Made by a program: the position numbers and the translations under genes. From positions 1 to 64,000 of the forward strand of contig CANJRX010000009.1 in the NCBI GenBank assembly GCA_947476895.1: 64,000 bases of DNA, read 5' to 3'. Positions 38,328-42,045 of the stretch are shown here, piece by piece (the stretch's first letter is position 1; the number at the start of each line of letters is the position of its first letter). Source of the DNA: Fidelibacterota bacterium. GTDB lineage: Bacteria > Pseudomonadota > Alphaproteobacteria > Rhodospirillales > Rhodospirillaceae. Under the pieces are notes generated by a model. That model made no database searches, was not told the DNA's origin, and saw only the letters and a program-made list of their open reading frames with translations.

Positions 38328-39362
38328 ATGAACATTCCTGTCACCTCCGCCGCAAAAAAGCCCGATATCAAACGCGCTGTCCTGGTGCCCGATGAGGCCG
38401 CCGGCGCGCGTTTGGATAAATGGTTGGCCGACGTCATCCCCAATGTATCGCGGTCGCGCCTCAAGACCCTCATTGAAGAGAGCGCGGTCACAATCGCCGG
38501 CAAAGTGGAAACTGACCCAGCCTGTCGGCTGAAGCCGGGTCAGAAAGTTCAGCTGACCCTGCCCGCCGCCGTCGACGCCACGCCCACACCACAGGGCATG
38601 AATCTGGATATCGTTTATGAGGACGAACATCTCCTCGTGCTCAACAAGCCGGTGGGGTTGGTCGTGCACCCTGCACCCGGCAATCTCGACAAAACTTTGG
38701 TCAACGCCCTGCTCGCCCATTGCGGCGACAGCCTCGCCGGAATCGGCGGCGTCAAACGGCCGGGCATTGTTCACCGCATCGACAAGGACACCAGCGGGCT
38801 TCTTGTCGTCGCGAAGACCGACGTGGCCCATGCCGGATTGTCGGCGCAGTTCGCCGCTCACACCATCGAACGCACCTATGATGCGATTGTGTGGGGCGTG
38901 CCGAATTCGCATATGGGACAGATTGCCGGCCAGATTGGCCGCAGCCGTTTCAACCGTAAAAAAATGGCGGTGCTCCAACGCGGCGGAAAATTCGCTGAAA
39001 CCGGATACCGCACCGCCACAACCTACGGCGAACTCGCGGCCCATGTGCGCTGCCGCTTGAAGACGGGGCGTACCCACCAAATCCGCGTGCATATGGCGAG
39101 CATCGGCCATCCGTTGATTGGGGATGCGACCTACGGCAGCAACCGCCGCCGGTCCATGAAAGGGCTGCCGCCGGAATTGGTCGAATTGCTAAAGAACTTC
39201 CCGCGCCAGGCGTTAAACGCCACGACCCTCGGCTTCATTCATCCGGTCACGGAAAAGAAACTACGTTTCGACTCTGAGCTGCCCGAGGACATCACGCAAT
39301 TGATGGAAGCTCTGTCGGAAATTGAACTCGTCGAAGACCTGGATAACAACTACGAAGACTAG
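38328..39362 (+). CDS. rluD: ribosomal large subunit pseudouridine synthase (RluD type)
   Basis: This enzyme converts uridines of 23S rRNA (helix 69 in E. coli RluD) to pseudouridine. The 344-residue protein has an N-terminal S4 RNA-binding domain (about 23-80, with GARLDKWLAD) and the RluA-type catalytic domain with Asp152 in VHRIDKDTSGLLVVAKTD, plus KTGRTHQIRVHMASIGHPLIGDATYG near 245-270. Domain order and length fit RluD better than RluA or RluC, but these are hard to separate by eye. Start ATG at 38328, about 70 bases from the divergent JAMM gene. Confidence 0.9.
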   Translation: MNIPVTSAAKKPDIKRAVLVPDEAAGARLDKWLADVIPNVSRSRLKTLIEESAVTIAGKVETDPACRLKPGQKVQLTLPAAVDATPTPQGMNLDIVYEDEHLLVLNKPVGLVVHPAPGNLDKTLVNALLAHCGDSLAGIGGVKRPGIVHRIDKDTSGLLVVAKTDVAHAGLSAQFAAHTIERTYDAIVWGVPNSHMGQIAGQIGRSRFNRKKMAVLQRGGKFAETGYRTATTYGELAAHVRCRLKTGRTHQIRVHMASIGHPLIGDATYGSNRRRSMKGLPPELVELLKNFPRQALNATTLGFIHPVTEKKLRFDSELPEDITQLMEALSEIELVEDLDNNYED

Positions 39363-39871
39363 CGTTTCGGCGCCATGGGTTCGGCTGTGGCGTGTTCCTG
39401 TGCAGCCGCAGCAGCCGCCGCCGCCGCACCGGGCGGCTCATAGACCGATTCAACATCCGGTCCCCACTTCATCACCAGTTCTTTTTGCTGCGCCCGCATG
39501 CCGGTAATGCGTTGGCCGGCGGTCATGGTCATAAAGGCGCTGACCGCCGCCGGTGTGGTGGAATAAATCGCCCAGCCAAACAATGCCGCGCCGTAGAACA
39601 TCATCCACGCGAAGACGTTGGTGATGATGCCAAGGGCGACGGCGACGGTGTGGCCTTGAGTCCACAGATCCGCGAGATAGGGCGACGCGCCCGCCAGGTT
39701 CATGGCCCCAACAGTAAGGCCGCCGTAATAGCCTTTGCCACGCTCCATAATGAAGGCGACGCCGGTCGGCACCATGGCCACGGCGAGCACAATGACAGTC
39801 GGAATCATCATCAGGCCGATGGGAATGGCCAGCATGACGTAGAGGAAAAGTGTGCTGCGCTTTTTCATCAC
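39359..39871 (-). CDS. membrane protein of unknown function, partner of the kinase-like gene
   Basis: A 170-residue protein with three likely helices: about 8-42 (LFLYVMLAIPIGLMMIPTVIVLAVAMVPTGVAFI, possibly a hairpin) and 76-105 (VAVALGIITNVFAWMMFYGAALFGWAIYS). A cytosolic C-terminal part follows, ending in a poly-Ala run (AAAAAAAAA) and a short Glu/Ala/Pro tail. It overlaps the stop of the kinase-like gene by 4 bases (ATGA), so the two are co-translated. It also overlaps the convergent rluD stop by 4 bases. No family assigned. Confidence 0.68.
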   Translation of the reverse strand: MMKKRSTLFLYVMLAIPIGLMMIPTVIVLAVAMVPTGVAFIMERGKGYYGGLTVGAMNLAGASPYLADLWTQGHTVAVALGIITNVFAWMMFYGAALFGWAIYSTTPAAVSAFMTMTAGQRITGMRAQQKELVMKWGPDVESVYEPPGAAAAAAAAAQEHATAEPMAPKR

Positions 39872-42045
39872 AGCAACTTACCCATGAGGACGACGACAAA
39901 AGTCACAAACATGATCAAGGTCGCGGCCACGGCGCCGGTCTGGCGGCCAAGCTTGATGGCCGATTCCTGACGGTCCATCTGGCCGTGCTCGAAATCATAA
40001 ATCATTTTCTCGGCGGCCGCATATTCAGCCTTGGACCAGGCAAAACCCTCGGCATCCTTCTGACGCTCTTCAGGGTTATCGAGGTAATTATAAAGTTCGG
40101 CCAGGTTCCCTTTGCGCACCAGCTTGGGGATTTCTTTCTCAAGATCCTTACGCTTGTTGCGGTTCTGATAGCTGTTGATGACGGGCCCCATGAGCGCGCC
40201 AACCCAACCTGCCAAGCCGTAAAGCGCTTCAGGACCCAAGCGCCACTGCACAATGGCGAGCACGCTCAGCATGCCGATGGTGGCGCGGTCGGGACGCGGG
40301 TCGTTCATGGAATCGATCTGCGAACCGGTGCCCTTGGCATAGCGCGCACGCAAGAAGGCTGCCACATGGCGATCCACCGGCCACAACTTCGTATTGGCAT
40401 TTTTAGCTGAAGCATCCAGGGCCGGCAGCACGCCCTTCACTTCCATGACGTACTGATTTTCGATCAGCGGACTCATACAAGGCTGCCATTCGTTCAATTC
40501 GTATACGCAGCGTTCAATGCCCGCACCCGAGTTCGGGTCCTTGAGGTAATTCTTCAGATCGCGGAAGACGGTTTCATACTGCTGATTATCGGCGGCGATT
40601 TTGCCGGCTTGCGCACCCAACCAATGCCGCCAAAGTTCGCGATTGATGAAATCCGAGAACGGCTGAAGCTTTTGTTTGCGCAGCATCGCGATGGCCAACG
40701 CCTGACCGAAACCTTCGATGAAGCAGCGGAAATCGCGGAAACGGATCGGCGCTTTGGGGTCCATCAGCATCAGCACGCGTGCGACAATCACATCATCGGT
40801 GTCGCCCTTGTTGCCGCCCATCATTGACATGGCGCCGGTGCTTTTGATGGCTGAATCGATGCCGTCGGCCAGTTCGTTGATCTCGTGGCCGCGCCTGATC
40901 CAGATTTCCAGCGTGCCGTCCGAGATGATACTGATCGCCTTTTCCCAGTTCTGGTACATGGCGTAGGACAACGGACGGATCGAATGGAATTCCTGATCAG
41001 CGAAACGGATCGGACGTTGCGCCGCCGATTCAGCTTTAGCTTGGATCGGCGTTAGACGCTTACCATTGAGCCAAAGGTCGATGTTGGTCGCCGCCCAACG
41101 CTGTTCGGTGTCGTCCGTCAGCAGTCCGCGCAAACATTCGATCTGCGCCACCGGCATGCGTTCGTCGCCCACCAGCGCAGCGTAAGACCCCGTTTGGATT
41201 TTGCGCCGAATAATTTCCGCGTCGGGCACGCCCTGCAAAGGATTGCGGCCGATGGCGAGCATCAGCACTGTCGCACCGAAGGCATACATGTCGTCGGCAT
41301 GGGTGCCGCCGCCGCGACCGGACGGATTGGCCATGCCGGATTCAATGGTCTCCAGCACAACCGGCTGATCGTGAGCTGCCACCGAAGTCACGCAATCGCC
41401 CAGCACGATCTTGGTGCGCTGCTCGTCCATGTAATAAAGATTGTCGGGACGGATGGCGCGGTGCGCGATGCCCTTTAACCCCAGCTCTACCAATCCATCG
41501 GCGATGGGCTTGATGATAGCGCGCGCGAACTGGTGATCGGGAACACGCTTGAAGGTCGACGCCATCGTGTCCATCACGCGGCCACCAAGCGGCCGATGAT
41601 AAATGACGATCACGCACTTACGATCGGCAAGCGGCCATTCGGCCACGCCCCAATCGACCATGTGCAACACGGCGGGAATTTCCAAACCCTTCAAGATGCG
41701 CATCACGCTCACGCGCGTCGGCATCTCGGGTTTGCAGACTAGGGCATACAGCGGCCGGCCCTCTTGCTTGCGGTCTACGACCTCGTAGGCCAAAGCATTC
41801 GGCATATCGAGCGCGGGGATTGGCCGGTCGCAATACAGCGTGAAGCGATCGCGCACGACAATGAAGCTGCCGCTCGCGGACGACTGCGGTGTGGGTGGCG
41901 GCGTTGGTGTTGGAGCGGGTGCAGTAGCTGACGATGACGCTACGGGTGCGGCCGCTGGAGCAGCCGCAACTGAAACGAGCGTCGGGGCCGCGGCAGCACG
42001 AGGTTGTGCTGGCGGCTGTCTGAGGTCCGTAGCCGCTTCGGCCAT
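39868..42045 (-). CDS. protein-kinase-like membrane protein with a degenerate catalytic loop
   Basis: A 725-residue protein. Residues 1-60 are Ala/Pro-rich. About 80-330 is a eukaryote-type kinase fold: Lys105 in ALVCK (VAIK position), HRAIRPDN at 195-202 (the HRD aspartate is alanine), Asp217 in GDC at the DFG position, ADDMYAFG at 250-257 and the Arg316 region. No glycine-rich loop is evident. The missing catalytic Asp suggests a pseudokinase. The middle (about 345-590) is unassigned and soluble. A hydrophobic stretch (about 610-640) and a C-terminal helix (AATLIMFVTFVVVLMG) anchor it. It is coupled to the downstream membrane-protein gene. Confidence 0.75.
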   Translation of the reverse strand: MAEAATDLRQPPAQPRAAAAPTLVSVAAAPAAAPVASSSATAPAPTPTPPPTPQSSASGSFIVVRDRFTLYCDRPIPALDMPNALAYEVVDRKQEGRPLYALVCKPEMPTRVSVMRILKGLEIPAVLHMVDWGVAEWPLADRKCVIVIYHRPLGGRVMDTMASTFKRVPDHQFARAIIKPIADGLVELGLKGIAHRAIRPDNLYYMDEQRTKIVLGDCVTSVAAHDQPVVLETIESGMANPSGRGGGTHADDMYAFGATVLMLAIGRNPLQGVPDAEIIRRKIQTGSYAALVGDERMPVAQIECLRGLLTDDTEQRWAATNIDLWLNGKRLTPIQAKAESAAQRPIRFADQEFHSIRPLSYAMYQNWEKAISIISDGTLEIWIRRGHEINELADGIDSAIKSTGAMSMMGGNKGDTDDVIVARVLMLMDPKAPIRFRDFRCFIEGFGQALAIAMLRKQKLQPFSDFINRELWRHWLGAQAGKIAADNQQYETVFRDLKNYLKDPNSGAGIERCVYELNEWQPCMSPLIENQYVMEVKGVLPALDASAKNANTKLWPVDRHVAAFLRARYAKGTGSQIDSMNDPRPDRATIGMLSVLAIVQWRLGPEALYGLAGWVGALMGPVINSYQNRNKRKDLEKEIPKLVRKGNLAELYNYLDNPEERQKDAEGFAWSKAEYAAAEKMIYDFEHGQMDRQESAIKLGRQTGAVAATLIMFVTFVVVLMGKLL

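Follow-up and report, generated by a model that had tools for sequence, protein, structure and literature searches.

What does a kinase fold do in a protein that has lost the residues of catalysis? The question was raised by a gene in a stretch of 64,000 nucleotides, hereafter the window (contig CANJRX010000009.1 of assembly GCA_947476895.1, positions 1 to 64,000 of the forward strand), which is titled Fidelibacterota bacterium and placed in the Rhodospirillaceae (Alphaproteobacteria) by GTDB. The product of the gene, P1, is a protein of 725 amino acids, and a smaller gene downstream encodes a membrane protein, P2. Pseudokinase families of bacteria are conserved, and their function is unknown (PMC12599244). 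The open reading frame (ORF) of P1 had been pointed out in an earlier note, which was made from the DNA letters alone and had the strand and coordinates right (Table 1). The results described here identified P1 as representing a conserved pseudokinase family, and suggested that it works at the membrane together with P2.

The kinase fold of P1 lacks the catalytic residues

P1 was modelled by AlphaFold2 with 94 family members as input (mean predicted local distance difference test score, pLDDT, 91.8; predicted template modelling score 0.85). Residues 57–329 were modelled confidently as a two-lobed kinase fold. The best structural match was WNK3 (5o21_A), with a Z of 24.3 and a root-mean-square deviation of 2.5 over 252 residues. 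All 999 Protein Data Bank (PDB) chains aligned to the model, which were Foldseek's own top matches for it, gave Z of at least 8. At the level of the model, the kinase fold of P1 is secure, and the proposal of such a fold in the earlier note was borne out. The Pfam profile Pkinase (PF00069) matched residues 150–322 with 21.3 bits, below its curated cut-off of 31.7. The N-terminal tail preceding the fold was poorly ordered (pLDDT below 50 over residues 1–43 and 48–56), and Met1 was its sole conserved residue.

Residue conservation was counted over 196 aligned family members, all distinct and full-length. The earlier note had read HRA in place of the HRD motif at residues 195–197, and this was correct. 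Position 197 was occupied by A in 111 members, S in 32, N and G in 14 each, Q, E and R in six each, C in three, and K, M, T and Y in one each. Asp never occurred there, and all 196 members were free of HRD or HxD patterns near the catalytic loop. The leading triplets at residues 195–197 were HRA (97) and HRS (25). The HRA of the window protein was beyond chance, because Asp was missing at this position throughout. No family member with an intact HRD turned up, and the pseudokinase family that the note had envisaged was confirmed in so far as the loss of Asp is conserved in 196 of 196.

A second loss had been overlooked, as Lys105 had been taken for the retained catalytic lysine. Alignment with two intact outgroup kinases (loci L233 and L234), both of which keep the HRD Asp and the beta3 Lys, placed their beta3 Lys on Leu102 of P1. 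Position 102 was Leu in 155 of the 196 members and Lys in none. Position 105, on the other hand, varied (D 39, K 38, R 36, T 20, and others), and is Arg in both outgroups.

Other parts of the kinase domain were kept. Asn202 was found in 188 members, and Asp (124) or Glu (56) at position 217 in 180, in agreement with the retained Asp217 of the note. His195 (184), Arg199 (171), Asp252 (196) and Arg316 (194) were also conserved, and the catalytic loop followed the pattern HRxIRPxN. As judged from the alignment, the pocket of P1 is without the ATP-holding lysine and the base, but the positions of two metal ligands are retained in it along with structural residues. The glycine-rich loop had been reported as not evident, and indeed window P1 has no GxGxxG, which was found in one of the 196 members. 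This loss weighs little, because the intact outgroups also deviate from the strict pattern.

P1 thus has neither of the two residues expected of an active Ser/Thr kinase, the HRD Asp and the beta3 Lys; its kinase fold persists throughout a family from which catalytic residues have been lost. The absence of Asp197 and Lys102, combined with the retention of the metal-ligand positions in the 196 members, therefore indicated a conserved pseudokinase family and not a decayed gene.

P1 is accompanied by P2

Of 41 near relatives, 36 gave P1 matches, as did 102 of the 289 genomes sampled from the class. The latter number was reduced to 99, because three matches (G047, G104 and G216) were weak and partial. 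In the profile alignments, G047 and G104 proved to be ordinary kinases with HRD, and G216 was set aside with a match of 114 residues (E 7.7e-4). The named relatives, which were the best 80 of 291, carried titles that were largely Rhodospirillales, Rhodospirillaceae or unplaced Alphaproteobacteria. Among five P1 copies on Azospirillum plasmids, two were listed as 'serine/threonine protein kinase', a label that is probably misleading, and three had no listed name.

In the 289 class genomes, P1 and P2 were both present in 99 and both absent in 188. None had P1 only, and two of the 101 genomes with P2 had P2 only (Fisher p 2e-76, shared descent ignored). The matches in these two, G072 (at a contig end) and G086, were short and represented pieces of P2. 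This strongly supported the tie to a membrane protein that had been proposed earlier.

At the level of loci, P2 was found in the locus of 197 of 213 P1 ORFs (the 213 ORFs, like the 234 P1 loci collected, partly repeat the same genomes, and the loci vary in length). The 16 loci without P2 were accounted for as follows. Four were contig ends (L019, L041, L085 and L185). Three were extra P1 copies (L112, L114 and L132, in G136, G175 and G276), and P2 lay beside the other copy. For the remaining nine, genome searches placed P2 on another contig in every case. The co-occurrence is thus near-perfect even where the two genes lie apart.

Loss followed the same pattern. The six near relatives without a P1 gene (G002, G010, G017, G022, G035 and G039; completeness 63–100%) were also without P2. 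Divergence was correlated as well. The distances of P1 and P2 correlated at 0.727 over 84 loci, compared with 0.526 and 0.457 for the correlations with PurA. The partial correlation of P1 and P2 allowing for PurA was 0.643, and none of 2000 permutations reached as high.

Three further loci stood out. G022, which is 100% complete, retains a P1 remnant of 54 residues between purA and rluD (L136, 3004–3165). In G012, P1 is interrupted near residue 421 (L137, 3352–5354); neither genome gave an FlhA match. In L176 (9982–11971, minus strand), where P1 does not share its contig with P2, an ORF resembling a PAS sensor histidine kinase by eye lies just behind P1.

Helical domain and C-terminal helix

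The region following the kinase fold was modelled alone over residues 335–660, with a pLDDT of 96.4. Foldseek gave no PDB match to this helical domain at E 0.001 (best E 2.0), none of the 646 chains aligned with VIA-align reached a Z of 5, and no Pfam family was found in more than one of 94 members. The modelled domain is therefore without a PDB match, although its fold is not thereby proven to be new. Over these 94 members, by which its conservation was scored, Tyr515 was invariant, and Gly507, Gly509, Glu511, Arg512, Cys523, Ser525, Asp558 and His560 were nearly so. Internal repeats were weakly supported (hhalign probability 3.6 between R1 and R2). Matches to designed armadillo-repeat profiles spanned 23 residues (E 0.0004) and were taken as chance.

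The domain was followed in the model by a single helix, spanning residues 658–724, that was hydrophobic at its end. The hydropathy windows began at residues 701–707. A C-terminal hydrophobic peak was present in 184 of the 196 members, and 32 had an additional peak elsewhere. We interpreted this helix as a predicted membrane anchor of P1.

P2

P2 lies downstream of P1. The junction is TGATG, in which the P1 stop codon and the P2 ATG overlap by one base, and not the four-base ATGA overlap read earlier. An alternative GTG start of P2 is present at 39871. The distance between the P2 start and the P1 stop fell between −20 and +30 bases in 149 of 165 P2 rows. The closest start available was used in each case, a choice that biases the distances towards short values. 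Three or four hydrophobic segments were indicated by hydropathy. The partner is thus a membrane protein as the note had it, and its three helices are less certain in number. Four residues, Asn57, Gly98, Trp135 and Gly136, were invariant in 27 members. No widely supported family was found for P2 in Pfam (at best two of the 27 members, E 0.0021) or in NCBIfam (one of 27), and a PDB profile search gave no known family. Extra P2 paralogues were seen in G054 (L257–L259) and G187 (L260–L262), with no P1 in the 8–11 kilobases around them.

Role of the P1–P2 pair

We consider it probable, with room for doubt, that P1 is a pseudokinase without catalytic activity, tethered to the membrane in an obligate complex with P2, and that the complex serves as a scaffold or a sensor of conformation and not as a phosphotransferase. 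Fold, loss of Asp and Lys, conservation of the helical domain, the predicted anchor, co-occurrence with P2 and correlated divergence are computed observations; physical binding of P1 to P2, the inactivity of P1 and its scaffold role are what we infer. The C-terminal helix would hold P1 at the inner membrane, in an orientation that we presume. P1 would bind P2 there, probably through its C-terminal helix and the membrane segments or tail of P2. The pseudokinase and helical domains might then be presented to putative clients as a scaffold or a switch.

Several observations weigh against this interpretation. P1 and P2 do not always pair one to one, because three genomes carry the extra P1 copies without adjacent P2 mentioned above, and G054 and G187 each hold three extra copies of P2. 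The co-occurrence counts ignore shared descent. G018 is without P2, and its P1 is cut by a contig end. Some near relatives hold sub-cut-off Pkinase matches besides P1. The kept Asn202 and Asp/Glu217 leave room for binding of nucleotide or metal, or for chemistry like that of SidJ or SelO.

In a bolder version, which we hold to be possible and clearly less well founded, the pair would be an undescribed obligate two-protein membrane complex of the Alphaproteobacteria. Its emptied pocket would serve as a ligand-operated switch, acting through the helical domain and P2 on a membrane machine, possibly the flagellar export apparatus or motor.

The metal-ligand places bear on the alternative that P1 is an atypical enzyme, whose kinase fold binds nucleotide or metal and catalyses another reaction, such as glutamylation (SidJ) or AMPylation (SelO). 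Their conservation, like that of His195 and Arg199, speaks for such an enzyme, and repurposed pseudokinases of this kind are described in PMC12599244. On the other hand, Lys is never found at the beta3 place, where Leu predominates, and position 197 accepts 12 different residues. A loss of ATP anchoring fits the absence of Lys102 and the variety at position 197 better than a new active site, and we regard the atypical enzyme as unlikely.

Genome G173 suggested that the complex might serve motility or the assembly of flagella, perhaps by assisting the export gate or the motor at the inner membrane. In this genome two tandem P1–P2 cassettes lie directly upstream of flhA (L088, 295–7693, minus strand; FHIPEP 853.8 bits). 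FlhA was found in 88 of 99 P1 genomes and in 77 of 190 others, an odds ratio of 11.7 that is uncorrected for descent. For PhaC, used as a control for lifestyle, the association was weaker (77 of 99 P1 genomes, 104 of 190 others; odds ratio 2.9). The near relatives pointed in the same direction. P1 was absent, interrupted or a remnant in five of the nine without FlhA (G017, G035, G039, G022 and G012), and absent in two of the 32 with an FlhA match (G002 and G010).

These results were offset by others. Three of the five relatives that had lost P1 are only 63–85% complete. Among the other relatives without FlhA, P1 was full-length in G000, G005 and G015, whereas that of G036 was split into two pieces across two contigs. 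It was likewise full-length in G009, in which the FlhA match covers only 52 residues. Eleven of the 99 P1 genomes are without FlhA, the window genome included, and P1 is intact there. Beside P1 itself, flhA was seen in one of 234 loci. The flagellar role is thus doubtful, and the link is suggestive. It would name a client for the complex of P1 and P2, and is not opposed to it.

It is very improbable that P1 works as an ordinary Ser/Thr kinase in which a different residue supplies the base. The intact fold and the conserved catalytic-loop shape are what such a kinase would have. Both the Asp and the beta3 Lys, however, are lost in all 196 members, and no single fixed residue has taken position 197. 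P1 as an intact kinase was ruled out by the missing Asp197 and Lys102 in the alignment. A decaying kinase gene without function, as the interrupted P1 of G012 and the remnant in G022 might suggest, is hardly credible for a protein that is full-length and conserved class-wide with invariant residues outside the kinase motifs, and this conservation also refutes a recent pseudogene for the P1 family.

Relation to known pseudokinases

The solved domain closest to that of P1 by Z, tied with several others, was that of the WNK kinases (PDB 5o21), a likeness in fold only, with 16% identity. WNK kinases, unlike the presumably inactive P1, are active enzymes.

EssB/YukC of type VIIb secretion resembles P1 in being a membrane pseudokinase with degraded catalytic motifs, and it recruits proteins non-catalytically (PMC12599244; PMC9600267). 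It shows that a membrane pseudokinase can act without catalysis. EssB/YukC, however, is part of a secretion system of Firmicutes, whereas P1 has a helical domain of 326 residues, a C-terminal anchor and a dedicated partner. By analogy, P1 may resemble EssB/YukC in its way of working; membership is not claimed. GLW pseudokinases have GLW in place of HRD (PMC12599244), and GLW was found at residues 195–197 in none of the 196 P1 members. Membership of P1 in this family therefore fails on the motif.

No description of the P1 family was found in the literature searched, and it may be an unnamed cluster in the kinase atlas behind PMC12599244. Judged by that literature, P1 appears to be a new family with its own architecture among the bacterial pseudokinases; of the families in PMC12599244, which include ActPs1-3, CP1, DYD and DLHK, the motif comparison covered GLW. 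Roughly one in three of the class genomes sampled has the family, always with the same partner, and it contains a domain without PDB match. With only two genes, the pair is a convenient system in which to study the work of a kinase fold that no longer catalyses, and some of the bacteria that bear P1 can be grown and subjected to gene deletion.

Origin of the P1 family

When 398 genomes of the phylum were searched with the P1 profile, 18 matches reached E 1e-20 or better, 16 of them in the class and two outside. The latter were the two outgroups used above, L233 (G336) and L234 (G560), which are intact kinases of another class of the same phylum. They have HRDIKPGNLF, DFG and the beta3 Lys, and their Pkinase scores were 124.7 and 132.4 bits, respectively. 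Their matches to the P1 profile covered the kinase domain and extended into the beginning of the helical domain. Taken separately, the first helical unit of P1 matched L234 with a total E of 5.6e-10, made up of four places, each weak to moderate, and L233 with an E of 0.0026. The middle region of P1 had been called unassigned, and its fusion to a pseudokinase unusual. It has indeed no PDB match or widely supported Pfam family, but it is not wholly unique, because its start also follows these two intact kinases.

As the likeliest course, suggested by the sequences of the two outgroups, an intact kinase with the helical unit would have lost catalysis before the P1 family spread in the Alphaproteobacteria. 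The neighbours of L233 are genes for an FHA plus zinc-ribbon protein, an NrdG-like radical-SAM protein and an FGE-sulfatase protein, perhaps a signalling island of its own.

Genomic neighbourhood

The features of the locus are listed in Table 1. The ORFs on the two sides of the pair are taken to be purA and an rluD-like gene. P2 and the rluD-like gene run tail to tail, and their ends share four bases (39359–39362), the stop of P2 included.

Table 1. Features of the P1–P2 locus, in positions of the window
Feature	Position	Strand	Basis
P1, 725 amino acids, probable membrane-tethered pseudokinase	39868..42045	−	ORF; homologues in relatives and class
P1, disordered Ala/Pro-rich N-terminal tail, residues 1–56	41878..42045	−	pLDDT, conservation
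P1, pseudokinase domain, about residues 57–330	41056..41877	−	AlphaFold2 model, PDB structure alignments
P1, HRA replacing HRD, residues 195–197	41455..41463	−	Sequence
P1, conserved helical domain, residues 335–660	40066..41043	−	Own model
P1, predicted C-terminal membrane helix, about residues 701–722	39880..39945	−	Hydropathy and model
P2, 169 amino acids, small membrane protein, conserved tail with WG	39359..39868	−	ORF and hydropathy
purA (presumed), usual upstream neighbour of P1	42215..43504	−	ORF; homologue in 156 of 234 P1 loci
rluD-like gene (presumed), convergent with P2, overlaps P2 stop codon	38328..39362	+	ORF; homologue in 105 of 234 P1 loci

Besides purA and rluD, hisZ and rpoH were each found in 94 of the 234 P1 loci, and none of the four was present in 53. 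These neighbours give no pathway, because they are housekeeping genes. Outside the purA locus the neighbours were mixed, and no third constant partner of P1 and P2 was found among them by eye and by passing five neighbour proteins through Pfam. A promoter scan found none, and terminators were at the level of shuffled sequences.

P1 was the only Pkinase match in the window genome. Of the 36 near relatives that gave a P1 match, 24 had no other above-cut-off Pkinase match and 12 had another. P1 therefore does not serve a partner kinase in general, and regulation of such a kinase was rejected as a general role. An anti-phage defence role was also rejected: the PADLOC matches of P1 were confined to its kinase domain (best 30.9 bits), and P2 had none.

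Genome G173, with its two cassettes beside flhA, held a further P1–P2 pair behind purA (L108). Eight loci that encode P1 are titled Candidatus Marinimicrobia (L141, L142, L144, L146, L147, L149, L151 and L156). Their P1 is 70–88% identical to that of the window, and the titles look mislabelled.

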